Shown piece by piece: positions 539 through 28,162 of a DNA stretch of 33,287 bases. Source of the stretch: a virus; IMG/VR virus record IMGVR_UViG_3300045912_000949, positions 1 to 33,287 of that record; one strand, 5' to 3'. A program made the position numbers and the translations under genes. The notes beneath the pieces are model-generated. The model was not told where the DNA came from. It did no database searches and saw only the letters and a program-made list of their open reading frames with translations. Numbering within the stretch: position 1 is the stretch's first letter; every line of letters begins with the position of its first letter.

Positions 539-2521
539 TCACGCGAAGACCAGACCGCCGTTCTGCGCCTCCCGGACCAGCTGGCCGGTGTTGCGCGCCA
601 CCTGCTCGCTGGCGCGGGCGGTGCGCTCGGCCAGGCTGTCGGAGCCCAGGCCGGCGACGGCGAAGGCGCTGAAGGTCCCCTTCACGTCCGTCTTGGCCTC
701 GGCCTCGTCCAGTCCTTCCAGGTCCAACTCCGGGCGGCGGGCGCGCTGCGCCTCGCGATCTGCCGCCGCCAGTTCGCGTTCCAGCTCTGCTTGTTCGCGC
801 TGGGCGGCCAGCTCGGCGGCCCGCTGTTCCAGCGCCCGCTGGGCCTCGGCCACCCGCTCCTGGTCGGCGGCGTTGGCGGCTTCGAGTTCTCGCTGCCGCT
901 CCCGGCGCTCCTCCTCCTGCATCTGGTTCAGCGCTTCCTCGCGCTGGCGGCCGCCCTCTCGCGCCTGATCGACGCGCCGGGCGCGCTCCTGGACCCGGCG
1001 GTCGAGGCGCTGACGGGCCTCGCGGTTCTGCTGCTCGACCTCGCGGTTGATGGCCTCGACCTCGCGCCGGGCCGTGGACGGGCTGAACAGGTTCCGCACC
1101 CGCGCCCAGGCCCGGCGGAAGAAGCCGACGAACTCGTTGAAGGCGATCTGCAGGCCGGTGCAGAAGGTGTCCCAGCCATCGGCCAAGGCATTGACCACGG
1201 TCCAGAAGGCGACCTCGATCCCCGTCCAGGCGGTGTTGAAGGCGCGGGCGACGGCATAGACCGCCGTCCAGAACAGCTCCACGAAGAACGATTTGAAGCG
1301 CCGCCACGCCGCGCTGATGGCTGTAATCCCTGCTTCCCAGACGACCTGGATGCCGAGCCAGGCGACCTCCATCGCCCCGCCCAGGTCGCCCGCCGCGATG
1401 GCGTCCTGGATGCCCTGCCAGGCCGTACCCGCCGCACCCAGGAGTTGATCGAACCCCTGGCCGAGCGACTCCAGGGCCATGTTCCCTTCGTCGGTGGCGA
1501 ACAGGACCGCGGCGGCGATGCCTCCGACAGCCGCGACCACCAAGCCGATGGGAGACAGCAGAAAACCGATGGCCGCCCCGAGCAGGCTCACCGCCGTCGT
1601 GGCCGCGGAGATGGCGAAGGTCACCAGCCCGATGGCCGTGCCGACCGCCGAGATCATCGGCCCGAGGATCATCAGGGCCGCGCCCACGCCGACGATCCCC
1701 GCGACCACCGCCGCGATGATCGTGATGACCTCGCGGTTCTCGTCGATCCACGCCGCGCTGTTGGCGGCGACGCGGGTGATCCACTGGGCAACGGCCTGGA
1801 GCGTCGGGGCCAGCGCCGCGCCGACCATGAAGACCACCTGCTTGAGCGACCGCCACAGCGTTGAGAGCGCGTCGCCGAACGCCTCGGCCGCCTGCGTGTC
1901 CTCGGTGCTCATGGTCAGGCCCAGGCCGTTCGCCTCCCGGCGCAGCTCTTGGATGCCCTGGGCTCCCGTGGACAGGAGCGGCAGCAGGCTGGCCCCGGTG
2001 CGGCCGAAGATCTCCATCGCAATCGTGGCGCGGTTGGCCGGGTTCTGAATCCGTGACAGGCGGTCGGCGATCAGCTCGAACTGCTGATCGGGCGACAGCC
2101 CAGTCAGGTCGGCGATGGTCAGCCCCAGGCGGGCCAGGTCCTGCCGGGCCGACGCCGAGCCGCGGGCCGCCGCGATGATGTTGCGGCTCATGGTGCGAAG
2201 GCCCTTCTCCAGGTCCTCCGCGCCGGACCCCGACTGCTCGGCCGCGTAGCGCAGCTCGGACAGGGCCTCGACCGCCACGCCGGTTCGCTGCGACATGTCG
2301 AGCATGTCACTGCCCATGTCCGCAAACAGCTTGGCCGCGCCGAGGAAGGGAAGGGCCAGCGTGACGCCCAGGCCGGCGAGCTTTGCCCCCAGCGCAGTGA
2401 TGCTCGCCCCGAACGCTTTCAGCCTGGCGGACGCGGCGTTGAGCCCCTTGACGAGCCGGGTGTCGCGGGTGAACAACTCCACATACGCCGCACCTGCCCG
2501 AACTGCTTGTGCGCTCGCCAT
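539..2521 (-). CDS. Phage tail tape measure protein
   Basis: This 660-residue protein sets tail length and is ejected with the DNA in siphophages. The N-terminus (about residues 1-60) is an Ala-rich helical segment of the TP901/PhageMin_Tail kind. Several long hydrophobic stretches follow between about 230 and 330, rich in Ala, Gly, Val and Ile. The last third (about 450-620) is a highly charged Arg/Glu/Gln coiled coil. At roughly 1.5 angstrom per residue the tail would be about 100 nm. The ATG at 2521 (MASAQAVRAG) is chosen because the sequence beyond it overlaps the nuclease gene and is not tape-measure-like. An upstream GAGGAAA is present but spaced rather far. Tail tube and chaperone genes lie upstream, as expected. 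Confidence 0.93.
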   Translation of the reverse strand: MASAQAVRAGAAYVELFTRDTRLVKGLNAASARLKAFGASITALGAKLAGLGVTLALPFLGAAKLFADMGSDMLDMSQRTGVAVEALSELRYAAEQSGSGAEDLEKGLRTMSRNIIAAARGSASARQDLARLGLTIADLTGLSPDQQFELIADRLSRIQNPANRATIAMEIFGRTGASLLPLLSTGAQGIQELRREANGLGLTMSTEDTQAAEAFGDALSTLWRSLKQVVFMVGAALAPTLQAVAQWITRVAANSAAWIDENREVITIIAAVVAGIVGVGAALMILGPMISAVGTAIGLVTFAISAATTAVSLLGAAIGFLLSPIGLVVAAVGGIAAAVLFATDEGNMALESLGQGFDQLLGAAGTAWQGIQDAIAAGDLGGAMEVAWLGIQVVWEAGITAISAAWRRFKSFFVELFWTAVYAVARAFNTAWTGIEVAFWTVVNALADGWDTFCTGLQIAFNEFVGFFRRAWARVRNLFSPSTARREVEAINREVEQQNREARQRLDRRVQERARRVDQAREGGRQREEALNQMQEEERRERQRELEAANAADQERVAEAQRALEQRAAELAAQREQAELERELAAADREAQRARRPELDLEGLDEAEAKTDVKGTFSAFAVAGLGSDSLAERTARASEQVARNTGQLVREAQNGGLVFA

Positions 2522-2547
2522 GATCGGCCATTTCCTCGTGCAGCGCT

Positions 2548-3096
2548 CTAAATCGTCCAATCCGGCGCGACCGGCTCTGCCTGTCCCGGCGTCTGCCCAC
2601 GGAGCAACTGGTGCGGACAGCAGTGCTGGCGTCTCTTCGCCCAGTTGCATCCCATGCAGAGGACCTGGTAGCCCGGGGGAAAGCCTTGCTTCTTGAGCCA
2701 GCGGTAAAACTTGAAGCCCGTGACCCCCAGCTCTCGCCGGTGCTCCGCCCCGTTGCCGAGGACATGGTCTACCGTGAGAAAAGCGAGCCCCGTTTCCCCA
2801 CAGCAGACGCACCGCGCGCCGCCGTAATGGGACAGCACCTCCCGCTTGAGCCGCCGCGCCCACGCTTGATGGGAGCGACGGTGCTTGGCGACGCAGGCGG
2901 GACAGGTCACCAGCGCCGAGGCCTCGGGAAGCCGCCGATAGCAGCGGATACAAAGGCGATTCTTCTTGGCCCGTTCCCGAACAACCTGCTGATCACGAAT
3001 GGCGCGGGCCAAGCAAGACGCACATTTGGTTCTGCCGCCAGATCGGGACCGCTGCCCACACCGCTTGCACATTCCTGGATCAACGGTCGATGGCAT
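2548..3096 (-). CDS. HNH-type zinc-binding endonuclease, probably free-standing homing nuclease
   Basis: The protein has 182 residues. It contains three Cys-rich zinc knuckles: CKRCG...CASC near the N-terminus, CIRC...CPAC near residue 50, and CVCCGE near residue 97. The last is followed by FLTVDHV and, about 45 residues on, VLCMGCN. The CCGE-DH-CxxCN arrangement is typical of small phage HNH nucleases. The gene lies between the tail chaperone pair and the tape measure, where no structural gene is expected, so it looks like an intron-less homing nuclease. Its ATG is 3 bases past the previous stop and is preceded by AGGGAAG. A recombination endonuclease VII relative is the main alternative. 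Confidence 0.82.
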   Translation of the reverse strand: MPSTVDPGMCKRCGQRSRSGGRTKCASCLARAIRDQQVVRERAKKNRLCIRCYRRLPEASALVTCPACVAKHRRSHQAWARRLKREVLSHYGGARCVCCGETGLAFLTVDHVLGNGAEHRRELGVTGFKFYRWLKKQGFPPGYQVLCMGCNWAKRRQHCCPHQLLRGQTPGQAEPVAPDWTI

Positions 3097-3829: not shown

Positions 3830-4858
3830 TCACTTGGCCACACGAATCGGAATTGGGATGGGCTGCCACTCTTCGTCAAATTCCGCAGGCCAGGAGCGGA
3901 GCGGAATCGGCAACGGCATCCAGGATTCGTCGGCGTCGGATGCCTTAGGGCGGGTCCGCTGCGCGACTTCCGCCGAACAGCCCCACATCGACACCTTCCG
4001 GCCCATGCCGCTCGTGCAACAAACCACGGAGATGAGTTCGTTGGTATCGGCGCGGAAGATGCCGCCGCCGGAATCCCCCGACGACACGCTCAGATTCATG
4101 CGCAATTGGCCCTGGCCGTTTTCGCGCTCGACGATGGTGCCGTCCTCGCGGTTGCCCGGCTTGTCCACGCCGTAACCCATGTGCCAGATGGTCGTACCCG
4201 GCTCGGGGTTCTTGGCCGCGATCAAGGCATAGGGTAAGTCAGCAACTTCCTCGTCCGTCACGCACCAGGCCGCGTCGGGGCCCTTGTGGTGCGCGACGAC
4301 GCGCAAGGTCAACGACCGACCATCCTTCAGCGTTAGCGTGCCTTTCTGGCCAACGCCCGACACGCAGTGGGCGGCGGTCAGCACATCCCAGCGGCCGTCG
4401 GGCCGGCGCGGGCCAATCACCGTGGCCGTGCAGCCGGCGCTGCCGAAGCGAATGCGCCCAAGGGCACCTACCGGATCGAGCTTGCCGTCGCCGGGCGGTT
4501 TGGGATCGGGCCTGGGCGGCGTCGGCGGCACCGGCGTGCAGGACTCGATGGTCACGCTGACGCGAGCTTCCTCGACCATGAGGTTGCCGTCGGCGTTGGA
4601 GATGACCAGCACCTCGACTTCGTAGGTGCCGGGATGGGCGGCGAACTCCAGGACGCCTCGCGGCGAAGTCGCCCGCTGCACGTCTTTGGACGGATGCACG
4701 CGCCACAGGATGGCGGCCTTGGCGTCCACGCCCTCCGCGCGGAGTCGGACCAGGGAGTGGGGCTTGTACTTGGTCTCGCCCGCGATGCGCACCGCATCCG
4801 CCATCGCGGCGCCAGGGGCGAGTGCCAGCATCAACAAAACGACAATCGATGAACGCAT
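3830..4858 (-). CDS. Exported trypsin-like serine protease with N-terminal Ig/PKD-like domain
   Basis: The 342-residue protein begins with a clear signal peptide (MRSSIVVLLMLALAPGAAMA, predicted cut after residue 20). Residues 21-105 look like a beta-sandwich of the PKD/Ig type. A Pro-rich linker (about 109-123) follows, then an S1 protease domain. The triad is visible: His164 in LTAAHCV, Asp195 in GPDAAW and Ser263 in SSGDSGGG, so it should be active. It is preceded by a GAGGAGG Shine-Dalgarno sequence. It sits between the tail tube and chaperone genes, inside the virion operon and on the same strand. An exported protease is not part of normal tail assembly, so it is probably a moron acting on the host envelope or surroundings. 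Confidence 0.9.
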   Translation of the reverse strand: MRSSIVVLLMLALAPGAAMADAVRIAGETKYKPHSLVRLRAEGVDAKAAILWRVHPSKDVQRATSPRGVLEFAAHPGTYEVEVLVISNADGNLMVEEARVSVTIESCTPVPPTPPRPDPKPPGDGKLDPVGALGRIRFGSAGCTATVIGPRRPDGRWDVLTAAHCVSGVGQKGTLTLKDGRSLTLRVVAHHKGPDAAWCVTDEEVADLPYALIAAKNPEPGTTIWHMGYGVDKPGNREDGTIVERENGQGQLRMNLSVSSGDSGGGIFRADTNELISVVCCTSGMGRKVSMWGCSAEVAQRTRPKASDADESWMPLPIPLRSWPAEFDEEWQPIPIPIRVAK

Positions 4859-7814: not shown

Positions 7815-9800
7815 TTACACTTCGCCTTTCGCCTTCACGCCGCCGCGATAGTCCTGGAGACTTACTCCGAAATCATGGAATCCGCGCATCTGCACGCCCA
7901 GGACGTGGAAGTCGGCGTCGGCCGTCTCGATGGTCGGCGCTTCCTGGCCGTTGAGGAACGCCACCTCGATCACCGGCAGGTCGCTCGCCTCGGCCAGGAG
8001 ATACCACGCCTTGGTCGAAAAGCCCGCGTACTTGCTGTTGCCCAGGTAGCGGCTCACCTCGACGCGGAACTTGCCCTGGTGCGGGTTGGTGATCGGGTAC
8101 TTCACGTTCGCGGTGTTGTCGCGCAGCTCCAGCGACTTGAAGAGCTGCGAGCCGATGGCCGACAGCGCCGTGGGCACGAGCAGGATCGCCGGCATGATAC
8201 CGATCGGCTTGCCGTCGGAGTCCACCTGGTCCATGAAGGCGACTTCGCCCGCCGTCAGGCCGTCGATCCCCAGCGCCGTGGTCGCGCCCGTGAGGTAGTT
8301 GCCGCGGGCGGCCGTGAAGAAGGTGCTGTTGTTCAGGAACGTGGTCCAGAAGACATCGTTGATCTTCAGGCCCGAGCCTCGGCCGAGCTTGCGCGGCACC
8401 GTGGTGATGGCACCGAGATCGTCGTTGATGATGTCGCGGCGGTCGATGGACAGAAGCAGGCCGTAGGTGTCGGCCCGATTCTCGTACTTCTCTTCGCCGA
8501 GGGTGCCGTGCTTCAGCTCGCCGCCGGGCGCGACCAACTCGTACTGGTCCTTGCCGATGAGGCGGTAGCTGGTCACGGTCTTGAAGTCGCTGACGTTGCG
8601 GACAGCGGTGATGTTGCGCCAGGTGCGCTCGACCGAGAAGAAGCCCTCCAGGAGGAACTTGTTGGCGACGTTGGAGAGGATGCCGCCGATGTCGATGGTC
8701 GAGAACGACGCCTCGATGCCGCGTCCGAAGGCGAAGCGCAGAACCGCCCGATGGTCGCGGAAGTTGCGGCCGGTGTAGCCGTTGGCCCAGGCCGCCTCCA
8801 GGAGCAACTCTTGCAAGCCGATGCCGCCGCGGAAGCGCCGGCTGGCCAGGTCGAGCGTTTGCGGCTCGTACAGCTCCTCGACCCGCCCCAGCTTGGCCGT
8901 CAGCAAGCAGGCTGCTTCGAGCACCGTGGCGGTGATGGTGTTATCGGGGACGTGGACGGCTGGGGAGCGCGGGCGGTCGGCGCGGAGGATTTCCAGCTCG
9001 GTGCGGGTCGCGTCCCAGCCTTCCTGGATAGCCCGCGCCTCGATGTCCGCGTGCCGGCCCGCACAGACCCGACGGATGGCGGCGATGCGGCTGGTCTCCG
9101 CCAGGGCGTGGGCGCGAACCTCCTCGGCCGTCGGCTGCGGATCGGTCGGAGGTGCCGGCAATGGGGGCGAGGCGGTGCCGGTGGCCTCGGTGTTGGCGTC
9201 TCGGTTGTTCACGGCTGCATCTCCCGACGGGTTGGTCGCGGCAACGGTCGCGCTGGTGCGGCCGTCGGCCCCGAGATCGACGAAGCTGATCTCGCCGAGC
9301 GTCGCCTTACGCACGACGTTGAGCGGGCCAGTGAGCGCTCGGCCGTTGACCACGACCTTCTGGTTCTCCTTGATGAACTCGAACTCCTCGACGCCGGCGC
9401 CGACCGACGCCTGCCAGGGGAAGCCGTTCTTGGCCGAGATGACAATCTCGCGAGCCGCGGCCGTGTCGCGGGACACCACCCCGGTTGCCGTGAGCTGGCC
9501 GTCCTCGATGCGGATGGCGTCGGTGTGTCCCACGCCGGACAGCGGATCGTGCCCGAAGCGGATCGGCCGCGATTGCGAGGGGATCGCCAGTCCGGCCAGG
9601 TCGAGAACCACTGGGTAGCGCCAGCCGGCGATCCGCATCGGCGCGCCGGTGTAGGCGACCATGCGGAAGCGCGGCAGGGCCTTGTCGGCATCGGCGCCGC
9701 TGGCCGCCAGCTCAATCGTCGCGGTCGCGGCCAGGTTGAGCAGGCTGGGCACGCCCAGATCATGCGGCTGCCCACTGGGCTTCCGACTCGTCGATTTCAT
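7815..9800 (-). CDS. Prohead protease fused to major capsid protein
   Basis: The 661-residue product joins two virion functions. Residues about 40-190 resemble a prohead protease of the HK97/Mu type, with likely catalytic His84 (IRFGHDPL) and Ser132 (WQASVGAG), followed by the typical ATLGEISFVDLGAD end. A Pro/Thr-rich linker lies near 200-230, a helical scaffold-like stretch at about 230-330, and an HK97-fold capsid part from about 330 to the end (IGGILSNVANKFLLEGFF and GKFRVEVSRYLG). The protease presumably cuts itself off during maturation. AAGGAG lies 7 bases before the ATG at 9800. The gene start overlaps the end of the portal gene by 41 bases. Confidence 0.9.
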   Translation of the reverse strand: MKSTSRKPSGQPHDLGVPSLLNLAATATIELAASGADADKALPRFRMVAYTGAPMRIAGWRYPVVLDLAGLAIPSQSRPIRFGHDPLSGVGHTDAIRIEDGQLTATGVVSRDTAAAREIVISAKNGFPWQASVGAGVEEFEFIKENQKVVVNGRALTGPLNVVRKATLGEISFVDLGADGRTSATVAATNPSGDAAVNNRDANTEATGTASPPLPAPPTDPQPTAEEVRAHALAETSRIAAIRRVCAGRHADIEARAIQEGWDATRTELEILRADRPRSPAVHVPDNTITATVLEAACLLTAKLGRVEELYEPQTLDLASRRFRGGIGLQELLLEAAWANGYTGRNFRDHRAVLRFAFGRGIEASFSTIDIGGILSNVANKFLLEGFFSVERTWRNITAVRNVSDFKTVTSYRLIGKDQYELVAPGGELKHGTLGEEKYENRADTYGLLLSIDRRDIINDDLGAITTVPRKLGRGSGLKINDVFWTTFLNNSTFFTAARGNYLTGATTALGIDGLTAGEVAFMDQVDSDGKPIGIMPAILLVPTALSAIGSQLFKSLELRDNTANVKYPITNPHQGKFRVEVSRYLGNSKYAGFSTKAWYLLAEASDLPVIEVAFLNGQEAPTIETADADFHVLGVQMRGFHDFGVSLQDYRGGVKAKGEV

Positions 9801-11217
9801 CGTTGGTCTCCTTGGGTTCGCTTGGCTGCGTCTGCACCGGCGTCAGCCCCAGTTCCTGCATGAGCGCGACTTCCTTGGCCCGCTGGCGCAGGGCCTCTTC
9901 CCAGTCCCGGCCCTGCCGGGCATATTCGTAGGCCAGAGTGGTCGTGTTGCTGGCCAGGCGCGTTGCTTGTGCAGTGGCTTCCTTGGCAGGATCGACGTGC
10001 TCCTGTCCGTCCCAGAACCACTGGTGCGGCCAGTCGCCGATGGGGCCGAGGCCGGCGGGCAAGAAGCCCGGAATCAGCGCTGCCTCGTCGAGCCAGGCCG
10101 CGAGAATGCGGTCCAGCACCACGCATTCGAGATGCGCCTGGTCAACACGGATTGCCTTGAAGTAGGTCTGGTGGTCGAGCCGGCCGGAGGCGTAGTTGTA
10201 CCCCGACGAGTTGCCCGCCGCGACGTTGAAGGGCATGTTGAGGCAGCGGGCGATCTCGTTGAGGATCTCCTTCTTAAACTCGGCGTAGGTCGTCGCGGGT
10301 TGCTCCGCTTGCAGTTGCGACATCTTCCAGCCGCCGGGCATCGTCACCAGCGCTCGCTGTTCCAGTTCGATCGGCTCGAACGGTTCGGCAGAGTCAGCCT
10401 CGCCGCCGGCCGGGGCGTCGGTGTACAGGATGCCGGCGAAGTCGGCGGCGGTCTCGGCGGCGGCGATCACCGCCAAAGTGAAGCGCCGCAGCTGGGCAAA
10501 CAGCGGCAGCGCCGGCATGATGTCCGGGATGCCGCGCGCCTGGCCGGGCCGGTCGGCCCGGAACCAGTGGATCATCGACTGAGCCGGAACGCGGTCGAAC
10601 TCCAGCACGTAGCGCCCCATCGTGTCGCCGGGATGCTGCTTGAGCACGTGGTACTCGACCGGGTTGCCGGCGTCGTCGTACACGATGCCGTCCACGAAGT
10701 TGCCGGTCGGCACCGTGGTGTCGGGCGTCGTCACCTGATCGGCTTCGATGAGCCGCAGGTCGAGCTGCACCGACGTCGGCAGCTTGGGGTTGCTCGTCAT
10801 GACGGCGAACGCCTCGCCGTCCTGCGCCCGGGCCATGCGCATCGTGCGGAGCTTCTCGGCCAGGTTCACGGCCTTGGCCCAGACGACGAACTCGCGCTCG
10901 ATGAGGCGGTTCGCCTCGCCATCGGCCGTGAGCAACTGCAGGCGCGGCCCGGTGCCAACCACGTCGTTGGCCAGGGTCAGCACGATGCCGCGGGCGTAGC
11001 TGTTGTTGGCGACCTCGTAGCGGGTGCGGTTCCGCAGGATGCGCCGCACCTCCGCGCTGTTGGCGGCGTTGGCCGACAGACCGTCCGCGTTGGTCCAGTG
11101 CCGGCGATTGTCCGGGTTGGTCGCCGCCGCGTCGTAACGGGCACGAATGGCCCGCACGACGCGGCGCGGCGCGCAAGGGTTGCGCCGAGCAAACAGATTG
11201 GTCAACCAGTTCAGCAC
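9760..11217 (-). CDS. Phage portal protein (lambda family)
   Basis: The 485-residue protein carries the lambda gpB-type portal pattern: NNSYARGIVLTLANDVVGTGPR near residue 70, the stretch WAKAVNLAEKLRTMRMARAQ, DQVTTPD, then MIHWFRADRPGQARGIPDI, and the ARCLNMPFNVAAGNSSGYNYAS motif near 330. It forms the dodecameric ring through which DNA enters and leaves the head. The last 14 codons overlap the capsid fusion gene. The acidic C-terminus (PKETNDEIDESEAQWAAA) is unremarkable for portals. Its partner, the large terminase, is not adjacent; it lies some 15 kb away on the other strand. Confidence 0.95.
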   Translation of the reverse strand: MLNWLTNLFARRNPCAPRRVVRAIRARYDAAATNPDNRRHWTNADGLSANAANSAEVRRILRNRTRYEVANNSYARGIVLTLANDVVGTGPRLQLLTADGEANRLIEREFVVWAKAVNLAEKLRTMRMARAQDGEAFAVMTSNPKLPTSVQLDLRLIEADQVTTPDTTVPTGNFVDGIVYDDAGNPVEYHVLKQHPGDTMGRYVLEFDRVPAQSMIHWFRADRPGQARGIPDIMPALPLFAQLRRFTLAVIAAAETAADFAGILYTDAPAGGEADSAEPFEPIELEQRALVTMPGGWKMSQLQAEQPATTYAEFKKEILNEIARCLNMPFNVAAGNSSGYNYASGRLDHQTYFKAIRVDQAHLECVVLDRILAAWLDEAALIPGFLPAGLGPIGDWPHQWFWDGQEHVDPAKEATAQATRLASNTTTLAYEYARQGRDWEEALRQRAKEVALMQELGLTPVQTQPSEPKETNDEIDESEAQWAAA

Positions 11218-11219
11218 GC

Positions 11220-11417
11220 CTACTCCGTTCCGGGTGGGACGAGCTTGTTGAAGCGCAGGCCGCGCTTTTTCGACTTGACCGCCTCTTTCGATGCCAGGTA
11301 GCGATCGGCCTCGATCTGGTCGGGCAGCGGGTGCTGCTCGACGCTGCCCGCGTCGCCGGAAGCCTTCGCCGGCCCCTCGGCGTTCTTGCGGATTTCGTCT
11401 TCGAGGTCGTCGGCCAT
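11220..11417 (-). CDS. Small protein at the gpW position
   Basis: A 65-residue charged protein (MADDLEDEIRKNAEGPAKAS...) is the first gene of the leftward virion operon, 2 bases before the portal start. Short proteins with the pattern AxGPAKAxGDxGxxEQHxLxDQIxAD and an ending near RFxKLVPPG occur between terminase and portal in many phages, the place held by gpW in lambda. GAGGAG precedes its ATG. A 46-bp element ends 20 bases upstream and is likely the operon's promoter or leader. A role in head completion is possible but not shown. Confidence 0.8.
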   Translation of the reverse strand: MADDLEDEIRKNAEGPAKASGDAGSVEQHPLPDQIEADRYLASKEAVKSKKRGLRFNKLVPPGTE

Positions 11418-11437
11418 GAAGCGCTCCTCAAAACGAT

Positions 11438-11483
11438 GTTCCTCTATTTCCTAAAAGCCGCTCTGGCGCGGCGACTTGACGGA
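11438..11483 (-). promoter_or_regulatory. 46-bp regulatory element, copy 1 (before virion operon)
   Basis: Reading leftward, this segment starts TCCGTCAAGT and contains GCCGC and GCGGC arms around a 6-base loop, then TTTTAGGAAATAGAGG. It matches the segment at 12849-12894 at 43 of 46 bases, in mirror orientation. It ends 20 bases before the first virion gene. A sigma-specific promoter, or a hairpin leader, is inferred. Confidence 0.7.
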
Positions 11484-11529
11484 CTGGAAGGAAAAAACTC
11501 GTCGAGAAGTTCCTCCCGGCGGGCTCGCT

Positions 11530-11661
11530 GCGAATTTTCGCTGGGCCTTTGGGAAAAAATCCGAAAAAAGCTGAAGTCCAGAACCTCTTGGAAGGCAATG
11601 GCTTATAGCGTTGGCTCCTTGGCCGGCCCCGCGAAAAATCGCCCTCTCAGCGAATTTTCGC
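11530..11661. repeat. Three short near-palindromic AT-core sites in the control region
   Basis: GCGAATTTTCGC occurs at 11530-11541 and 11650-11661, and the related GCGAAAAATCGC at 11631-11642. Each has GCGA/TCGC ends around an A/T core in an otherwise GC-rich region. They lie in the 329-base non-coding stretch 11418-11746 between divergent genes. I see no convincing gene there. Operator or AT-rich protein-binding sites are likely. Confidence 0.45.
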
Positions 11662-11746
11662 CAGTCGGGGGTGACGGGCCGGCGAGTGGCCAGCAGCCAT
11701 CGTGAACTGCGGCCGCCGGCCCCGGCAAGCAACCTGGAGGTTCGCT

Positions 11747-12076
11747 ATGCAGGTTCAGTCCAGCAAGTCCTCCCTGTCCCCGGCGCGGCGGCGCCTCGTC
11801 GAGCTGATGCAAGACCTCAACTTCGGCCGCATCGAGCGGCTGGAGGTCCAGGGCAGCCAGCCGGTCTTCGACCCACCGCCCCGCATCGTCCGCGAGATCA
11901 AGTTCGGCACGCAGAACGGGCCGCGTCCCGAGGCCGCCCTCCGCGACTTCGTGCTCAAGGCCCAGCTCGTCGAGTTCTTCGCCTGGCTCGACGTGCTCGG
12001 CGACGGCGTCATCGAACGCCTGGAGGTGCAGCACGGGTTGCCGTTCCGCATCGTCGTCGAGCAGTCCGCGGCCTGA
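11747..12076 (+). CDS. Unknown small protein of the control region, with internal repeat
   Basis: The 109-residue protein starts at ATG 11747 with GGAGG upstream (MQVQSSKSSLSPARRRL...). The heptapeptide IERLEVQ occurs twice, near residues 27 and 88, each followed by a short loop and RIV. This suggests two related beta-hairpin units around a helical middle (DFVLKAQLVEFFAWLDVLG). No enzyme motif is visible. It lies just upstream of the sigma-like gene and between the two mirror elements, so a regulatory role is possible. The function is unknown. Confidence 0.72.
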   Translation: MQVQSSKSSLSPARRRLVELMQDLNFGRIERLEVQGSQPVFDPPPRIVREIKFGTQNGPRPEAALRDFVLKAQLVEFFAWLDVLGDGVIERLEVQHGLPFRIVVEQSAA

Positions 12077-12272
12077 CCGCGACTCCGCCATCCGTCGTTC
12101 CGTTTCTGGTTTCTGATTCCACCACCTGACAGCAGACCGGCCACGCCGTGGAGGTCGTTGTGGGTGACGCCGTTTCGGCATCACACACGACTGACTTCCC
12201 GGACAGGGCTGTGTCTGCGCCGACGATGGCTCACCCACGCGACCTCCTCCGCGGCCGGCGGAGGAGATTCTC

Positions 12273-12848
12273 ATGCAAGAACTGTTCGATGACCGCGCCT
12301 TGAAACTCATCCGAGAGCGGGTCAAGCGACTGATCGGCCGGCACGGCTTCACCGCCTCGGATCGGGACGACCTGGAGCAAGACATGGCCCTGCACCTCCT
12401 GGAATGTCTCCGTCGGCAACAGCAACCCATCGAGGCCCCGGAGGGCTTCTTCCGCAAAGTCATCGCCGAACATGCGGTGACGCTCATCCGTCGCCGCGAG
12501 GCGGAAAAACGGGATCACCGCCGTCTCAGCTCGCTTCACGACAAAGTTCTCGATGAGGACGGTGAATACGTGGAGCGGGCCCGAGTCGTCCCGGAGGACC
12601 ACGTGCAGACCCGGCTGCACACTGCCTCACGCAGTCGCCTGGATGAGGTGGAACTGGTCGATGATGTGGCCGCCGTCCTGGCCAAGCTACCTCCCGACCT
12701 GCGCGACCTGTGCGAGCGGCTGAAGCACCACTCCATCACCGAGGTAGCCCGCCAACTCGGCGTTCCCCGCACCACCCTGCATGACGCCATTCGCCGGTTG
12801 CGGCAGCATTTCGAGGACGCAGGGCTGCGGGATTATTTGGGCCGGTGA
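12273..12848 (+). CDS. Sigma-70-like RNA polymerase sigma factor
   Basis: The 191-residue protein has the two-domain plan of small sigma factors. Residues about 8-80 fit region 2 (DRDDLEQDMALHLLECLRR, then PEGFFRKVIAEHAVTLIRRR). Residues about 133-182 fit region 4, with a helix-turn-helix in SITEVARQLGVPRTTLHDAI. A charged linker lies between. It should direct host RNA polymerase to its own promoters. GGAG precedes the ATG at 12273. The 46-bp element begins at the base right after its stop codon, and a mirrored copy lies 790 bases upstream of its start. A phage-coded switch for both main operons is the simplest reading. Confidence 0.82.
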   Translation: MQELFDDRALKLIRERVKRLIGRHGFTASDRDDLEQDMALHLLECLRRQQQPIEAPEGFFRKVIAEHAVTLIRRREAEKRDHRRLSSLHDKVLDEDGEYVERARVVPEDHVQTRLHTASRSRLDEVELVDDVAAVLAKLPPDLRDLCERLKHHSITEVARQLGVPRTTLHDAIRRLRQHFEDAGLRDYLGR

Positions 12849-12894
12849 TCCGTCAAGTGGCCGCGCCAAAGCGGCTTTTAGGAAATAGAGGGAC
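12849..12894 (+). promoter_or_regulatory. 46-bp regulatory element, copy 2 (before early operon)
   Basis: This is the mirror copy of the element at 11438-11483, starting one base after the sigma gene stop. It has GCCGC and GCGGC arms around GCCAAA, followed by TTTTAGGAAATAGAGG. The ATG at 12918 lies 23 bases beyond it, close to the 20 bases seen for copy 1. The hairpin plus T run could also serve as a weak terminator. Confidence 0.7.
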
Positions 12895-12917
12895 CATTTC
12901 CTATGCCGAGGGACGCC

Positions 12918-13769
12918 ATGACACTTGCATCTCCCTGGGCGCGTCGGAACGGCAGTTCCGGCGCGCCCGCCCTCGGCCGTCTCGACTTTCTGCTGCGCGA
13001 GCCGGCCGAAGTGTACCACGCGAAATCCAAGGAGCACCTGACCAGCCACGGCCTGGCCGACTTCCGCGAGAACCCGCTCCTGTACCGCAAGCGGCAACTC
13101 GGCCTGGTCGTGGAGGAAGACCGCCCCGCCTTCCAGGTCGGCCGGGCCGCCCACACGCTCATCCTCGAAGGCCGGGCCGCCTATCGGCGGCAGTACGCCT
13201 TCGGCGGTCCGACCAACCCGGCGACCGGCAAGCTCTTCGACAGCCGCTCCAAGGCTTACCAGGAGTGGGCCGAGCGCCAGGCCAAGCCGGTGCTGACCGA
13301 CCGCCAGGCCGGCCTGGTCGAAGAGCTGGCCGCCGCCGTCCAGCGCCATCCCGTTGCCGGCGAGTTGCTCGCCGAGGGCGTGCCGGAAGGTGTCATTCGC
13401 CGCGACTATCGCGGCGTCCCCTGCCAAGCGCGGCTTGACTGGCTCAATCCCGACAAGGGCCTGGTCGATCTCAAGACCTGCGACCACCTCAAGTACCTCG
13501 AGGCCGACGCTCGCTCGTTCGGCTACCTGCACCAGCTCGCCTTCTACCGCGCCCTCCTGGCGCTCCAGACCGGCGACGTGCTTCCGGTCCACCTGATCGC
13601 CGTCGAGAAGCGCGAACCATTTCGCTGCGGTGTGTGGCGGATCGATCCCAGCGTCCTGGCCGTCGCGGAGCAGGACAACGAGGCCGCCCTGGAGAGCCTG
13701 GTGCGCTGCCGGCAGCAGGACCACTGGCCCACCGGCTACGAGGAACTGCGCGTTTTCGACCACATTTGA
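12918..13769 (+). CDS. PD-(D/E)XK exonuclease (RecE/YqaJ-like, PDDEXK family)
   Basis: This is the first gene of the rightward early operon, about 283 residues. It has the usual order of the phage 5'-3' exonucleases: GRAAHTLILEG with His79, RLDW with Asp174 and VDLKT with Asp184 and Lys186. It then has a helical stretch SFGYLHQLAFYRALL, typical of the family. It would make 3' single-strand tails for annealing or strand exchange. ATG at 12918 has GAGGG 5 bases upstream and is preferred. An in-frame ATG at 12903 lies 5 codons earlier, so the start is uncertain. Confidence 0.9.
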   Translation: MTLASPWARRNGSSGAPALGRLDFLLREPAEVYHAKSKEHLTSHGLADFRENPLLYRKRQLGLVVEEDRPAFQVGRAAHTLILEGRAAYRRQYAFGGPTNPATGKLFDSRSKAYQEWAERQAKPVLTDRQAGLVEELAAAVQRHPVAGELLAEGVPEGVIRRDYRGVPCQARLDWLNPDKGLVDLKTCDHLKYLEADARSFGYLHQLAFYRALLALQTGDVLPVHLIAVEKREPFRCGVWRIDPSVLAVAEQDNEAALESLVRCRQQDHWPTGYEELRVFDHI

Positions 13770-13784
13770 CCCGAGGAACCGACC

Positions 13785-14558
13785 ATGAGTCTCCTGGCAC
13801 AAGTCCAGAGCGGCAAGCGATTCGCCCCACGCCGCCTGCTACTCTACGGCACCCACGGCATCGGCAAATCGACCTTCGGCGCCTCAAGCGACCGACCCGT
13901 GTTCGTCCAGACCGAGGACGGCCTGGGCGAGATCGAGTGTGACAAGTTCCCACTGACGCTCTCGTATCAGGACGCTTTGAAGGCGCTGGAGGCCCTCTAC
14001 ACCGACCAGCACCCTTACCGTACTCTGGTCGTCGATTCGCTCGACTGGCTGGAGCGACTCATCTGGGCCGAGGTCTGCCGGCAGCGCTCCGTCGAGAACA
14101 TCGAGGACATCGGCTACGGCAAGGGCTACGCCTTTGCCCTGACGAGCTGGCGCGAGTTCCTCGCCGGCCTGGACGCCCTGCGCAACGACCGCGGCATGAC
14201 CATCATCCTGATCGCTCACTCGCGCATCGAGCGCTTCGAGAACCCCGAGACCGACAGCTACGACCGCTACGTGCCCAGGCTGCACAAGCTGGCCTCGCAG
14301 ATCATCCAGGAGTGGTGCGACGAGGTGCTGTTCGCCACCTACAAGGTCTACACCAAGCAGACCGACGAGGGCTTTAGCCGCAAGAAGAGCAAGGGCATCG
14401 GCACCGGCGAGCGCGTCCTGTACACCAGCGAGCGCCCCTCCCACGTCGCCAAGAACCGCCTAAACCTGCCCGACGAGCTGCCACTCGATTGGCACGCTTA
14501 CGCTTCCTTCTTCCATCAACCCCATGTGACCCCGAACGGAGGACCAACCAATGGCTGA
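13785..14558 (+). CDS. Sak4-like RecA-fold ATPase (AAA_24)
   Basis: The 257-residue protein has a Walker A motif GTHGIGKST (residues 22-30), then TEDGLGEIE, and a Walker B strand TLVVDSLDWLE with Asp84. That order, a short RecA core without extra domains, is the pattern of phage Sak4-type recombination ATPases and related nucleotide-binding proteins (PF13479). It would act with the exonuclease before it and the DUF669 protein after it in single-strand annealing or exchange. GAGGAA precedes its ATG. Its stop overlaps the next start by 8 bases. Confidence 0.88.
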   Translation: MSLLAQVQSGKRFAPRRLLLYGTHGIGKSTFGASSDRPVFVQTEDGLGEIECDKFPLTLSYQDALKALEALYTDQHPYRTLVVDSLDWLERLIWAEVCRQRSVENIEDIGYGKGYAFALTSWREFLAGLDALRNDRGMTIILIAHSRIERFENPETDSYDRYVPRLHKLASQIIQEWCDEVLFATYKVYTKQTDEGFSRKKSKGIGTGERVLYTSERPSHVAKNRLNLPDELPLDWHAYASFFHQPHVTPNGGPTNG

Positions 14559-16314: not shown

Positions 16315-18034
16315 AGCCGTCGAAGCCGTCTACGCCTACCTGCGCTCGCACGACGACAACCCGGTCGTCGTCATCCCCACCGCGGGCGGCAAGACGCCGA
16401 TCATGGCGACGATCTGCAAGGACGCGGTGACGCGCTGGGACGGCCGGGTGCTGATCCTGGCCCACGTCAAGGAGCTGCTGGAGCAGGCGGCAGACAAGCT
16501 GCGCCAGGTCTGCTCCGAGGTCCGCTTCGGCGTCTACTCGGCGGGCCTGAAGCGCCGTGACACCGGCCGGGCCGTCATCCTGGCCGGCATCCAGTCGGTC
16601 TACCAGCGCGCCGGCGAGTTGGGGGCGTTCGACCTGGTGTTGGTAGACGAGGCCCATCTCATTCCCCCGGACGGCGAGGGTATGTATCGCCAATTCCTGG
16701 CCGAGGCCAAGGCACTCAACCCGCACCTGCGCGTGATTGGTCTGACGGCCACGCCGTACCGGCTGAAGTCAGGCCTGATCTGCAGCCCGGAACACTTCCT
16801 CAACGCGATCTGCTACGAGGTCGGTGTGCGCGAGCTGATCGTCCAGGGCTACCTCTGCCCGCTGGTCACCAAGGCCGGCAAGGCGCGGGCGGACACCAGC
16901 GGCCTGCACGTGCGCGGCGGTGAGTACGTCGCCGGTGAGGTCGAGGACCTGATGGACGAGGATGCGCTGGTGCGGGCCGCCTGCGCCGAGATCGTCGAGC
17001 ACACGCGCGACCGCCGGGCGGTCTTGATCTTCGCGTCGGGGATCAAGCACGGCGAGCACGTCGTGCGGGCGCTGAAGAAGCAGCATGGCATTGAGTGCGG
17101 CTTCGTCAGCGGCGATACGGCTGATGGCGAACGGGACCGACTGATTGCCAGATTTCGCCAGCAGGAGTGGGCACGCCAGCTTCAGATCGACTTTGGCGCA
17201 AACGCCGCCGAGCCGCTGAAGTATCTGTGCAACGTCAACGTGCTGACCACCGGCTTCGACGCGCCGAATGTTGATTGCGTGGTCTTGTTGCGACCGACGC
17301 TGTCGCCGGGCCTGTACTACCAGATGGTCGGCAGGGGCTTCCGGTTGCACCCCGGCAAGCAGAACTGCCTGGTGCTCGATTTCGGCGGCAACGTGCTGCG
17401 GCACGGCCCGGTAGACGGAATCAAGGTCAAGGAGCGCGACGCCGGAGGCAACGGCCAGGCGCCGGCGAAGGAATGTCCAGAGTGCCACTCGGTCATCTCC
17501 GCCGGCTATGCGCGCTGCCCGGACTGCGGCTATGAGTTCCCACCAGCGGAGCGCGGCAAGCATGACGCCAAGGCCAGCGAAGCCGGCATCCTCTCCGGGC
17601 AGGTGACGATCACCAAGTACGCCGTGCGGGACGTGTACTACGGCGTCCACAAGAAGCGTGACGCACCGGACGACGCCCCGAGGACCATGCGAGTCGATTA
17701 CAAGGTCGGCTGGCATGAATACAAGTCGGAGTGGGTCTGCTTCGAGCACACGGGCTACGCCCGCGCCAAGGCCGTGGCCTGGTGGAAGCAGCGCTCGCAC
17801 GAGCCGGTGCCGGAGACGGCTGAAGAAGCGGTTGCTCTGGCTCAGGCAGGACGCCTGACCACGACGCGCGAGATCACCGTCCGCAGCATCGCCGGAGAGG
17901 ACTTCGACCGGATCATCGGCTACGAGCTGGGCGCCATCCCGCCGCCGCTCGACACCCAAGAGGTGCCTGCGGACGCCATTGACTTCCCGTTCGGCTACAA
18001 CGCGGTCGCCGCGGAGGAGGAAATCCCGTGGTGA
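16289..18034 (+). CDS. SF2 DEAH-box helicase with zinc ribbon
   Basis: The 581-residue protein has the SF2 motifs in order: Q-like start RPYQREAV, motif I PTAGGKT (residues 30-36), DEAH (120-123), LTATPYR, then the second RecA domain with VLTTGFDAPNVD and motif VI QMVGRGFR. A four-Cys zinc ribbon CPECHSV...CPDCG follows near residues 392-408. The C-terminal part is of unknown fold. It resembles the RecG/UvsW-like helicases common in phage recombination modules. The start is GTG at 16289 with GAGGGGG upstream, inside the end of the RusA gene. Confidence 0.92.
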   Translation: MQIRPYQREAVEAVYAYLRSHDDNPVVVIPTAGGKTPIMATICKDAVTRWDGRVLILAHVKELLEQAADKLRQVCSEVRFGVYSAGLKRRDTGRAVILAGIQSVYQRAGELGAFDLVLVDEAHLIPPDGEGMYRQFLAEAKALNPHLRVIGLTATPYRLKSGLICSPEHFLNAICYEVGVRELIVQGYLCPLVTKAGKARADTSGLHVRGGEYVAGEVEDLMDEDALVRAACAEIVEHTRDRRAVLIFASGIKHGEHVVRALKKQHGIECGFVSGDTADGERDRLIARFRQQEWARQLQIDFGANAAEPLKYLCNVNVLTTGFDAPNVDCVVLLRPTLSPGLYYQMVGRGFRLHPGKQNCLVLDFGGNVLRHGPVDGIKVKERDAGGNGQAPAKECPECHSVISAGYARCPDCGYEFPPAERGKHDAKASEAGILSGQVTITKYAVRDVYYGVHKKRDAPDDAPRTMRVDYKVGWHEYKSEWVCFEHTGYARAKAVAWWKQRSHEPVPETAEEAVALAQAGRLTTTREITVRSIAGEDFDRIIGYELGAIPPPLDTQEVPADAIDFPFGYNAVAAEEEIPW

Positions 18035-20127
18035 CCCCTGGCGAACTGCTGACGGCTGCTCTCCGCTATGCCGAGCTGCGCTACCGGGTCTTCCCCTGCG
18101 CGCCTTCCGGTAAAGCGCCGCTGACCGAACACGGCTTCCATGACGCCACGAGCAATGCCGAGCAGATCGAGCGCTGGTGGACACAACATCCGAGCGCCAA
18201 TATCGGCATCCCGACCGAAGGCTTGCTGGTCATCGACATCGACGGCGACGGCAACCTCTGGCCCGGCGACCCGGAACGCAGCGCTTCCCTGGCCCAGACC
18301 GGCGCCGTGAGCCTGACGCCGCGCGGCGGGCGGCATTACCTCTTTCGCCGGCGAGGGGGCAAAGCGTGGAAGTGTTCGACCGGCAAACTGGCAGCGAGCG
18401 TCGATGTTCGCACCGACGGCGGCTACATCGTCGTGCCGCCCAGCCGAACTGCACACGGCGACTACCGCTGGGCGCCGGGCCTGGAACTCGACGAGCCGCC
18501 CGAACGCCTCCCCGAGCCGCCGGCGTGGTTGATCGCGGAACTCGACGCACTGACGACGACGCCCAACCCGTGGGTCAACGGAACGGGCACCATCGCGGCC
18601 AGCGGGGGTGAAGCGAACTCGATCCCGGAACATCACCGCAACGTGGCCCTGGCGCGCCTCGCCGGCACGATGCGCCGCGTCGGCATGACGCGGTCGGAAA
18701 TCCTGGCGGCGCTGTGCCAGGTCAACGACGACCGCTGCCGGCCGAGGCTTGAGCCGGCCGAGGTGGAGCGTATCGCCACAAGCGTCGCCCGGTACGAACC
18801 CGACCAGATCGCGACCGCGATGGCCGAGGGGCACTGGGACCAGCTCATGGTCGAGGCGTCGCCGCTCGTTCCAGTCAGCCTGGCTGACCTGATGGCACGC
18901 TATCCCGAACTGCGGCCGCCGGTGATCCACGGCCTGCTGCGTCGGGGCGAGACGATGAACGTCATCGCATCGCCAAAGACTGGGAAGTCTTGGATGGTCA
19001 CTGACCTGGCCCTGGCCGTCGCCACGGGACGACCCTGGCTCGACACGTTCGCGTGCGAAGCTGGCGACGTGCTCATCATCGACAACGAGCTGCATGGCGA
19101 GACTTCAGCCAACAGAATCCCCAGGGTCGCGGCCGCGCGGCAGATCGGCCTCAGTGAAGTTGGACAGCGCGTCTTCGTGCAGAACCTGCGGGGCCACTGG
19201 CAGGACATCTTCTCGCTGGGGCCATACTTCCGGTCGCTGGAGCCGGGGCGGTTCCAGGTGATCATCCTCGACGCGATGTACCGCTTCATGCCTCGCGAGA
19301 TGGACGAGAACGACAACGGCACGATGGCCAACGTTTACAACGCCATTGATCGCTACGCCGACTTGCTCGGCTGCTGCTTCGTGCTGATCCACCACACCAG
19401 CAAGGGCAATCAGTCGGGCAAGGCGATCACCGATGTGGGCGCCGGCGCCGGCAGCCAGAGTCGGGCGACCGACACGCACCTCGTCCTGCGTCCGCACGAG
19501 GAGGACGACGTGGTCGTGCTGGAAGCGGCCGTGCGTTCCTGGCCGCCAGTGACGCCCAGGTGCTTGCGCTGGGCCTTCCCCGTGTGGACGCCGGCCGACG
19601 ACCTCGATCCGACGCTGCTGCGGAGCGAGCAGCCGAAGCGAGCGCGCAAAGAGAAGACCGAACCGGAGTGGACTGTCGAGCGGTTCGTGACGGCGTTCGT
19701 CAGCTACGAGCCGAAGCTGCTCGACGCGATCCTGGTGACTGCAAATGAAAGCGGCATCAACGATTTCAAGGTCAAAGTTCTTCTGCGGAAGGCTGAAGCG
19801 ATTGGGCGTGTGTATCGGTGGGACATGGGACGTGGCCGACTCGGCTATGCCACGCAAGCGCCGCCACACGAGCAAGCGGTGCAAGACGTTGATGCCCAGA
19901 CAAGCAAGCGTGCTGTTCTTGAGCTACTTCGCTCGAACCCGGAATTGACGACCCGCCAGGTCGCGGAACAGTGCAGCGTATCGGTGCGTTGGGTGCAACG
20001 GTTGAGGAAGAACGTAGCCGACGACCCGGCGGTGCGAACCGGCGAACTCAACGAGTTCGCTGCGAACTGCTCACCGCCGAGTTCGCAGGGGAGTTCGCCT
20101 CGCAACTCTAACGAAGATGAAGACTAA
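18028..20127 (+). CDS. Primase-polymerase fused to RecA-like helicase (RepA-type)
   Basis: The 699-residue replication protein has an N-terminal AEP prim-pol domain with Asp70 and Asp72 (VIDIDGDG), His103 (GGRHYLF) and the VDVRTDGGYIVVPPS segment near 125. A PriCT-type helical domain spans about 200-258. A RecA-fold ATPase then begins, with Walker A ASPKTGKS (314-321), Walker B VIILDAM (411-417) and IHHTSKG. A helix-turn-helix (LTTRQVAEQCSVSVRWVQRL) lies near residue 645. Start GTG at 18028 follows GGAGGAGG and overlaps the helicase end by 7 bases. The last 30 codons contain the iteron-like sites, so codon choice there serves DNA signals. Confidence 0.93.
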   Translation: MVTPGELLTAALRYAELRYRVFPCAPSGKAPLTEHGFHDATSNAEQIERWWTQHPSANIGIPTEGLLVIDIDGDGNLWPGDPERSASLAQTGAVSLTPRGGRHYLFRRRGGKAWKCSTGKLAASVDVRTDGGYIVVPPSRTAHGDYRWAPGLELDEPPERLPEPPAWLIAELDALTTTPNPWVNGTGTIAASGGEANSIPEHHRNVALARLAGTMRRVGMTRSEILAALCQVNDDRCRPRLEPAEVERIATSVARYEPDQIATAMAEGHWDQLMVEASPLVPVSLADLMARYPELRPPVIHGLLRRGETMNVIASPKTGKSWMVTDLALAVATGRPWLDTFACEAGDVLIIDNELHGETSANRIPRVAAARQIGLSEVGQRVFVQNLRGHWQDIFSLGPYFRSLEPGRFQVIILDAMYRFMPREMDENDNGTMANVYNAIDRYADLLGCCFVLIHHTSKGNQSGKAITDVGAGAGSQSRATDTHLVLRPHEEDDVVVLEAAVRSWPPVTPRCLRWAFPVWTPADDLDPTLLRSEQPKRARKEKTEPEWTVERFVTAFVSYEPKLLDAILVTANESGINDFKVKVLLRKAEAIGRVYRWDMGRGRLGYATQAPPHEQAVQDVDAQTSKRAVLELLRSNPELTTRQVAEQCSVSVRWVQRLRKNVADDPAVRTGELNEFAANCSPPSSQGSSPRNSNEDED

Positions 20128-22711: not shown

Positions 22712-23062
22712 CTACGCTTCCGCGTCCGGCTGGTTCGGATCGTAGATGGTGCCACAGCTCGTGCAGCGCACCTTCTCGTCGTCTTGCCAGACCAGATGGT
22801 CGATGTCGTCCTCGCCGCAGTGCGGGCACGCCGGGCCGGGCGGCGTCCAGTCGTCCCGACTTTGCCAGATGTCGTGAATCGCCATCGCCGCCAGCATGCC
22901 GACCATCAGGTGTTCACGCTCGTCCATGTCGGCCAAGCGGCCCGTCGCGCAATCGCGGAACAACTCGATCTGATCATCCGGTTCCATGCGGTCGAGCGCC
23001 GTCCGCAGTTCGGCTCGCGTCTGGTCGATGTGGGCCATCAGCTTCAGAACTTCGCGGTCCAT
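22712..23062 (-). CDS. Zinc-ribbon protein of unknown function
   Basis: The 116-residue acidic protein has a helical N-terminal half (MDREVLKLMAHIDQTRAEL...). Its C-terminal zinc ribbon has CPHCG and CTSCG about 20 residues apart. It is the last gene of the leftward accessory operon. GGAGG lies 5 bases before the ATG and 14 bases separate it from the HARE-HTH gene. It could bind nucleic acid or a protein partner; nothing more specific is visible. Confidence 0.8.
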   Translation of the reverse strand: MDREVLKLMAHIDQTRAELRTALDRMEPDDQIELFRDCATGRLADMDEREHLMVGMLAAMAIHDIWQSRDDWTPPGPACPHCGEDDIDHLVWQDDEKVRCTSCGTIYDPNQPDAEA

Positions 23063-23076
23063 CGTGGCCTCCGTTT

Positions 23077-23592
23077 CTACTTGGCCAGCGCGAACTTGCC
23101 GCGCTCGCTCTTGACGAACCTCGACTCTTTGGCCTTGGTCGTGATCTCGCGCGCGATGGCGGAGTACAGCGTGCGGTCAGGCGTGGCACCGCCAGGGCTG
23201 GTCCAGTAGCCCTTGGCGGCCATCGCCTCGATCATCTCCTGGCAGGTCATCGCCTGGCCGTTCTCGCCCAGCACCCTGGCGGCGGCGTCCAGGCAGCCGA
23301 GCTTCTTCGCCTTGGCCTCACCGTTGGCCTCGGGCTTGGGCTTGCCCTTCGGCGTCTTCTTTTTGTTGCCGTCGGTCGGGGCTTGGACCTCAGGCTGGAC
23401 CTGGGCCGAGCCGTTGCGGTTGGCCGGGCAGCGCAGGCGCTGGGCGCTCTTGATGCGGACCTTTTTGTCGGTCAGCAGGTTGGTCGCGTCCCAGCCGCCG
23501 TGCGTGTTCTCGGCGTCGATGCGCACTGGAACGACCTCGTCGCTGACCTTGGCCAGGTACGTTCCGCCGATCTTGATCTCGTCCTTCTTCAT
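23077..23592 (-). CDS. HARE-HTH domain protein
   Basis: The 171-residue protein (MKKDEIKIGGTYLAKVSD...) has a small N-terminal beta part, a basic Pro/Lys linker (NKKKTPKGKPKPE) and a C-terminal HARE-HTH (HB1/ASXL) domain, LDAAARVLGENGQAMTCQEM to the FVKSERGKFAL end. HARE-HTH domains often read modified DNA. The ATG at 23592 is chosen because GGAG lies 7 bases before it; in-frame upstream codons come from the hairpin leader. It lies in the amidoligase operon. Confidence 0.85.
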   Translation of the reverse strand: MKKDEIKIGGTYLAKVSDEVVPVRIDAENTHGGWDATNLLTDKKVRIKSAQRLRCPANRNGSAQVQPEVQAPTDGNKKKTPKGKPKPEANGEAKAKKLGCLDAAARVLGENGQAMTCQEMIEAMAAKGYWTSPGGATPDRTLYSAIAREITTKAKESRFVKSERGKFALAK

Positions 23593-23624
23593 GGTGAATC
23601 TCCTCACTGGAGGTTGCGATGGAT

Positions 23625-23694
23625 TGGCTGCCATCCTCAGGCGGCGGGAACCACCCGCCGCGACGCTGCGGACCTGGCCCGCAGCGTTTCGGCT
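23625..23694 (-). repeat. Two-hairpin leader, copy A
   Basis: Read leftward, this 70-base segment starts right after a TGA stop. It holds hairpin I (arms ACGCTGCGG/CCGCAGCGT, 23663-23687) and hairpin II (arms GCGGCGGG/CCCGCCGC, 23641-23661). Hairpin II lies 48 bases before the HARE-HTH ATG. A copy at 23886-23949 has the same layout. Confidence 0.75.
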
Positions 23695-23853
23695 TCACTC
23701 CGAAAACCAGCCGGCGAACTCTTCCAGTGCGGTGTCGGCGCCGCGGCGCGAAGCCTCGGCTTCGACGGCCTCCTTCTTCTCTTTCCAGGAGCCCGGCTGC
23801 GACACCAGCTTTTCGAGCAGTTCGCAGAAGATGTCCCAGTCCTTCTCGGTCAT
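23695..23853 (-). CDS. Possible separate 52-residue protein
   Basis: An internal ATG at 23853 begins MTEKDWDIFCELLEKLVSQP, a wholly helical acidic peptide ending EEFAGWFSE. AGGGAG lies about 8 bases upstream and leader copy B lies 48 bases before this ATG, exactly as copy A lies before the HARE-HTH start. It may be translated alone. It is also in frame with the glutamine amidotransferase gene, so it could be only that protein's C-terminal tail. Confidence 0.55.
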   Translation of the reverse strand: MTEKDWDIFCELLEKLVSQPGSWKEKKEAVEAEASRRGADTALEEFAGWFSE

Positions 23854-24609: not shown

Positions 24610-24627
24610 GATCGTGTCCTCGTGGGG

Positions 24628-25479: not shown

Positions 25480-25510
25480 GGTGTGGTTCCTCGCAACGTG
25501 GATAGCCGCG

Positions 25511-25532
25511 CTGATGTACATGCGAACATCAG
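25511..25532. promoter_or_regulatory. Operator-like inverted repeat in the divergent gap
   Basis: CTGATGT at 25511-25517 and ACATCAG at 25526-25532 form a perfect 7-bp inverted repeat with an 8-base spacer. It lies between the divergent amidoligase and terminase operons and is a likely regulator site. Confidence 0.45.
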
Positions 25533-25612: not shown

Positions 25613-25831
25613 ATGACAACTGATTACCGCGAGACGACCGGCCTCAACCCGAACGCGCTGACGCTGGCAGACACCGCTAGGTTGCTGGCCCGCGTGGGCG
25701 GTCAGGCAGTGACCGTCGAGATGCTCCAGGCAGACGTGATGGCCGGCGCGCCCACGAACGCCGATGGCACGATCAACCTGGTCCACTACGCCGCCTGGCT
25801 CGTGAAGGAGATGGGGCGTGCCCACGATTGA
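25613..25831 (+). CDS. Small terminase-like DNA-binding protein
   Basis: The 72-residue protein (MTTDYRETTGLNPNALT...) looks like a single winged helix-turn-helix ending in TINLVHYAAWLVKEM. It aligns along its length with residues about 4-62 of the large terminase that follows (shared pattern: N/D-P, L...LxRLL, then YAAWLV). Such short wHTH proteins with a hydrophobic xxxYxxWL end resemble the DNA-binding domain of terminase small subunits. GAGG lies 4 bases before its ATG. It overlaps the next gene by 14 bases. A packaging-site binding role is inferred. Confidence 0.72.
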   Translation: MTTDYRETTGLNPNALTLADTARLLARVGGQAVTVEMLQADVMAGAPTNADGTINLVHYAAWLVKEMGRAHD

Positions 25832-28088: not shown

Positions 28089-28162
28089 CCATTCCCAACC
28101 GCCGGACAGCGCGCTGATCGCCGGGCGAAGGTCGCTGTGGGCAACTCCCCAGGAGATGTCCC

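Follow-up and report, generated by a model that had tools for sequence, protein, structure and literature searches.

What role do two nearly identical DNA segments play when they flank a sigma factor gene in mirror image, each pointing outward at a different operon of the same virus? The question is raised by the window analyzed here, the whole 33,287-bp stretch of IMG/VR virus record IMGVR_UViG_3300045912_000949, which is a planctomycete-type prophage. Judging from the letters and from their counterparts in related elements, we conclude that both 46-bp segments are very probably promoters of the phage ECF-like sigma factor encoded between them. This reading draws on the pair itself, its position, its concerted change with the sigma factor, the conservation of the boxes and not of the spacer, a fixed spacing, and regulons restricted to the element.

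Results

Genome context and position of the inverted pair

The sigma factor is phage-encoded: the record contains portal, capsid, tape measure, terminase and integrase genes, with predicted promoters at both operons. The features that orient the reader are as follows.

539..2953, minus strand: tape measure protein region, distal leftward operon
7815..9800, minus strand: capsid/head maturation protease fusion (family and PHROG matches)
9760..11217, minus strand: portal protein (PF05136, 4.4e-60)
11220..11417, minus strand: first gene of the leftward virion operon, 65 aa (ORF; start 20 nt from the left promoter)
12918..13769, plus strand: first gene of the rightward operon, exonuclease VIII-like (DUF3799, 3.9e-27; PHROG 412, 1.6e-42)
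13785..14558, plus strand: Sak4-like annealing protein (PHROG 124)
18028..20127, plus strand: primase-polymerase/helicase (family and PHROG matches)
25818-28088, rightward half: large terminase
28898-30493, rightward half: serine recombinase

Leftward lie the 65-aa gene and the portal, capsid-protease, decoration, major tail and tape measure genes; rightward lie genes for exonuclease VIII, Sak4, DUF669, RusA, helicase, primase and methyltransferase. The division first described, virion genes to the left and replication genes to the right, holds approximately, except that the large terminase and the recombinase are on the rightward half, which also contains a minus-strand block (22712-25521). 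No third copy of the element was found in the window for this block or for the distal terminase, so the two promoters may not serve everything. The tail gene cluster also includes a trypsin-like peptidase (3830-4858, minus strand).

The segments 11438-11483 and 12849-12894, each of 46 nt, are complementary at 43 of 46 positions in inverted orientation and have no equal in length or quality among the inverted pairs of the region searched, 9-16 kb. Their ungapped score is 39.4 (at most 12.8 in shuffles), which places the match reported by the earlier sequence-only reading far above chance. The core 21-mer of the element has two matches in the window (0.00 expected), and no further copy of the element was found in the 33,287-bp record. 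Read outward, both copies share TCCGTCAAGT-S-GCCGCGCCA-R-AGCGGCTTTTAGGAAATAGAGG-R-AC. The left copy lies 20 nt from ATG 11417 and the right copy 23 nt from ATG 12918, a start preferred over the nearer ATG 12903 because the latter is ACG in L004-L006; the distance of 20-23 bases to the first genes, as originally claimed, is correct for start 12918 and not for 12903.

11438..11483, minus strand: left promoter (predicted; inverted repeat, boxes aligned by family homology); -35 CGTCA at 11481-11477, aligned -10 GGCTTT at 11459-11454; leftward transcription, predicted start about 11448-11442
12849..12894, plus strand: right promoter (predicted; inverted repeat, shuffle score, motif discovery, box alignment); -35 CGTCA at 12851-12855, aligned -10 GGCTTT at 12873-12878; rightward transcription, predicted start about 12884-12890

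The register of the window's boxes was set by homology in the family alignment, as was the placement of its -10, GGCTTT, which deviates from the family consensus GTANGT.

The sigma factor between the copies

12273..12848, plus strand: ECF-like two-domain sigma factor, 191 aa, proposed reader of both promoters (PHROG, PDB and fold searches)

The product of this gene matches PHROG 1740, RNA polymerase sigma factor (E=1.4e-12), and has a PDB sequence match to SigE (7e-5) over region 4 only; against Sigma70_r4_2 in Pfam it scores 20.1 bits, under the 25.7 cut-off. Helices are predicted at residues 7-88 and 129-189. With an AlphaFold model of modest confidence (pLDDT 70, pTM 0.42), the top PDB matches in a fold search were all sigma factors, ECF first, none with E below 0.001. 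The PHROG, PDB and fold matches agree with the sigma-70-like assignment originally made for the gene between the copies. At 191 aa, the protein has the architecture of ECF factors (sigma2 and sigma4 only, about 200 aa). A GGAAC -35 is typical of ECF sigma factors, several groups of which depart from it; the -35 of this family is not GGAAC-like but CGWCR, and given this -35 the protein is filed as ECF-like only. Among 50,697 phages, the nearest match was a weak one, over region 4, to the sigma factor of Wolbachia phage WO, and a tblastn search of the plasmid collection PLSDB with the sigma factor of the relative L022 gave no match.

Concerted change of both copies in close relatives

The sequence-only reading had suggested looking for the element in relatives that keep the sigma gene, and seven of these (L003-L008 and L013) have it at both sites. 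In L003, L005 and L006 the sigma factor is 92-100% identical to that of the window; in L004 both copies are present, the left one cut by the contig edge. In L007, L008 and L013, where the sigma factor is 70-72% identical, both sites carry a type B element (CCGTCACCTCGCCGCGCCACTGCGTCCTTTAGAAGTAGA). Types A and B differ at two or three positions of the -35 part and at three of the -10 part, and the box positions affected are shared by both copies. When the two copies of a single phage are compared, their -35 and -10 parts show no mismatch (one in a single case), and the spacers show 0-5. Domain 4 of sigma factors reads the -35 and domain 2 reads the -10; between types A and B, domain 4 is identical at 51 of 57 positions and domain 2 at 38 of 61.

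A probable family-wide promoter after the sigma gene

A scan of 84,980 species genomes yielded 42 loci with related sigma genes, spanning Planctomycetota, Desulfobacterota, Acidobacteriota, Hydrogenedentota and others; in the phylum of L013, 39 of 392 sampled genomes had a related sigma match. Motif discovery in 38 non-redundant stretches following the sigma gene converged from all six seeds on [CT]CSGGTANGTA, with a score of 340.8 as compared to 214-228 for shuffled stretches. Intergenic DNA was used for this result, a search spanning the end of the sigma gene yielding only conserved coding sequence. The sequence CGWCR stands at a single fixed distance upstream of the motif, giving CGWCR-N17-GTANGT; across 33 lineages its summed score is 213 versus 162.9 +/- 5.6 (sd), and the full -35 is found at the fixed spacing in 23 of them. 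Among independent viral contigs, 24 of 32 score at least 15 of 17 directly after the sigma stop, a raw count with no null. Of 50 non-redundant lineages, 12 have the following gene beginning right at the sigma stop, which leaves no room for the element, and L023 keeps the sigma gene and lacks the element. A correspondence between -35 type and region-4 residues (PRTTL with CGTCA) was suggestive, but it is confounded by kinship and was not used as proof.

Predicted multi-copy regulons in other genomes

Ten genomes were searched with the pattern CCGACG-N13-TCCGGTAGGTA, allowing up to two mismatches. Most contain four to eight copies, which nearly always share a strand and lie within a single contiguous element or the contigs belonging to it; reversed-pattern controls gave 0-8 per genome. 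The four to eight co-directional copies in one prophage-like element are found in Desulfobacterota and other genomes (e.g. seven in G008:C1 553601-598085 and seven in G007:C6 410437-454009), and G001, G002 and G003, whose loci are on short contigs, have no more than one or two. The G008 copies stand ahead of the pre-integrase gene, the exonuclease operon, a post-primase module, a terminase small subunit gene and the portal gene. Most modules of an element are probably driven by its one sigma factor. The mirror pair is the form that this wider regulon takes in planctomycete phages: because the virion operon of the window's lineage is divergent, its two promoters face outward as mirror images. 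This inverted pair is specific to the lineage; most lineages have the sigma-side copy only, or several direct copies.

Weighing other explanations for the pair

The pair could be thought of as the terminal inverted repeat of a mobile element, or of a cassette, with the sigma gene as its cargo, and its inverted orientation at the ends of a 1.46-kb segment would suit that idea. Against it, the segment contains no transposase, the two L013 copies differ at 5 of 11 spacer positions and at 0 box positions, and the single or direct copies just described are at odds with a repeat that bounds a mobile unit, distant relatives having one or several co-directional copies. We consider it extremely improbable. 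Scarcely better placed, and very improbable in our view, is the idea that both copies encode a common RNA leader or a terminator hairpin, with GCCGC...GCGGC as its arms and TTTT after them: the right copy can fold such a hairpin, but the folding of the left copy does not exceed that of shuffled sequence (z -0.10). The GCCGC/GCGGC arms, which had been taken as conserved, are not so in relatives, where the arm is GCGTC in type B and GCCAT/GCGTC in the left copy of L013, and the hairpin is absent in distant members. Both of these readings, the alternatives originally offered, fail because spacer sequence varies between copies and relatives do not keep the GCCGC/GCGGC hairpin. Conserved boxes with a drifting spacer are, as read in these alignments, the signature of a bipartite protein-read DNA site and not of an RNA or a transposon end.

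Such a site might also be an operator for a DNA-binding regulator (perhaps the sigma-like protein itself acting as an HTH regulator) beside host promoters. An operator would likewise be expected in duplicate at both operons, and the best Pfam matches of the C-terminal part of the protein are generic HTH families. Nevertheless, the layout is bipartite and ECF-like with an invariant 17-nt gap, both sigma domains are present in the protein, with a DREDLEQE motif in region 2, and no separate promoter pattern common to both sites was seen; we regard the operator as improbable. The proposal that the sigma factor reads two promoters, put forward in the sequence-only reading, is supported by the relatives, the concerted change, the fixed -35/-10 spacing and the multi-copy regulons.

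Proposed upstream control region and conserved leader RNA

11530..11541: palindrome GCGAATTTTCGC, candidate operator 1 (near-identical in L003-L008)
11650..11661: palindrome GCGAATTTTCGC, candidate operator 2 (kept in relatives)
11746..12076, plus strand: conserved gene upstream of sigma, 110 aa (homologues upstream of sigma in relatives)
12125..12275, plus strand: conserved structured leader RNA of the sigma gene (covariance model, covariation, SD hairpin)

The GCGAATTTTCGC palindromes are conserved in L003-L008 with minor variants, and a further occurrence with one mismatch lies at 11631-11642 in the same intergenic region before the 110-aa gene. The 110-aa product has no Pfam or PHROG match; it is possible that it is an anti-sigma factor or co-regulator. 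Four distant elements (L016, L017, L019 and L025) have a gene for a LexA-like repressor close to their integrase and sigma modules; no such gene was recognised in the window.

A stretch of about 150 nt leading up to the sigma start codon is conserved across 30 divergent lineages, and related sigma genes of several phyla are preceded by this leader. The leader consists of a helix (alignment columns 24-35/66-78), a hairpin (45-47/54-56), a covarying pseudoknot (36-43/132-139) and an SD-occluding hairpin that ends at the start codon; in 29 of the 30 lineages, the hairpin immediately preceding the start codon contains the ribosome site. In this structure 92.7% of cells are paired and 14 of 22 pairs have both sides changed, figures favored by the choice of the structure on the same 30-lineage alignment. 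None of 500 shuffles reaches the observed structure on any of five measures, and shifting the pairing partners by 1-3 columns collapses it. The leader of the window matches the covariance model at 1.1e-20, although it was part of the training set. In 294 genomes of the phylum of L013, the model gave 10 strong matches, all by position directly upstream of sigma and most belonging to the training set. Among 297 genomes from the phylum of G007 (a Desulfatitalea), there were another 10, all followed by sigma and then the promoter, several being from genomes outside model building and partly close to training sequences. In Rfam, positions 11400-12960 of the window (E-value mode) had two chance-level matches, both below the gathering score, and 12 relatives had none.

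Weaker covariance-model matches correspond to a short variant before a small pre-integrase gene. In some cases (L130, L131 and L148), a sigma promoter lies ahead of this variant. The window has an analogue at 28102-28165, before a small ORF near the integrase, which is similar to part of the sigma leader (CGAAGGTCGCTGTGGGC ... CCCATG) and is below significance in the covariance-model search; comparable short leaders in L130, L131, L132 and L148 stand behind sigma-type promoters.

Discussion

A scheme for induction can be proposed from these parts. Induction would lift a repression that acts ahead of the 110-aa gene, with the two GCGAATTTTCGC palindromes as possible sites; the leader RNA, which would otherwise occlude the ribosome site, would then permit translation of sigma; and sigma would direct host core RNA polymerase to both elements. 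The exonuclease/Sak4/helicase/primase operon would be transcribed rightward and the portal/capsid/tail operon leftward. Thus, one protein could switch on both replication and virion genes. We infer the binding of sigma at the elements, the transcript starts and the timing. The leader RNA suggests that induction is controlled by a translational checkpoint in addition to a repressor. More tentatively, at a little under an even chance, the leader RNA, the ECF-like sigma factor and its cognate promoter may form a horizontally spread module, a lytic master switch in Planctomycetota, Desulfobacterota and other prophages, in which the RNA belongs to a new regulatory class that gates sigma translation on a cue or ligand. 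Like translation-controlling, riboswitch-like 5' leaders, the sigma leader combines a pseudoknot with an SD-occluding hairpin before the start codon; it differs in having no Rfam match.

Phage sigma factors are a known kind. T4 gp55, SPO1 gp28/gp34 and PBSX Xpf are phage proteins that redirect host polymerase to phage promoters. The likeness is one of role; these proteins act mostly on middle or late genes, whereas the sigma factor of the window has matching promoters at both the replication and the virion operons. Mycobacterium tuberculosis SigE and SigH and E. coli RpoE likewise have two domains and bipartite promoters with near-constant spacing, and the best PDB matches of the window sigma are ECF factors; it differs from them in its -35 (CGWCR, not GGAAC), in being phage-borne and in having no recognised anti-sigma factor. 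In the literature on planctomycete phage sigma factors we found nothing relevant. The nearest experimental parallel is SigN (ZpdN), a plasmid/prophage sigma factor of pBS32 in Bacillus subtilis, which is LexA-controlled and activates its own gene (PMC6751061). The prophage structural region is largely devoid of SigN promoters, and a reporter for a structural operon did not respond to SigN (PMC6751061). Both SigN and the window sigma are element-encoded with regulons essentially restricted to their own element, that of SigN including replication and nucleotide genes. In contrast to the SigN system, the virion operon of the window has the predicted promoter, and its sigma gene is preceded by a leader RNA; the L022 search of PLSDB, a collection that may or may not include pBS32, detected no relation in sequence.

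What is new is a sigma family that spans phyla, together with its promoter code, a mirror layout by which replication and virion genes are served jointly, and the leader RNA. Phage-encoded sigma factors have so far been known from a few model phages. Promoters that can be read from sequence make regulons predictable in uncultured phages, and natural covariation within the family offers a way to study sigma/promoter specificity.

Finally, nearly identical sigma loci (L014-L018) occur in MAGs labelled Blastocatellia, Myxococcota, Desulfomicrobiaceae, Desulfobulbaceae and Hydrogenedentota, reflecting either recent transfer of the element or mis-binned contigs.
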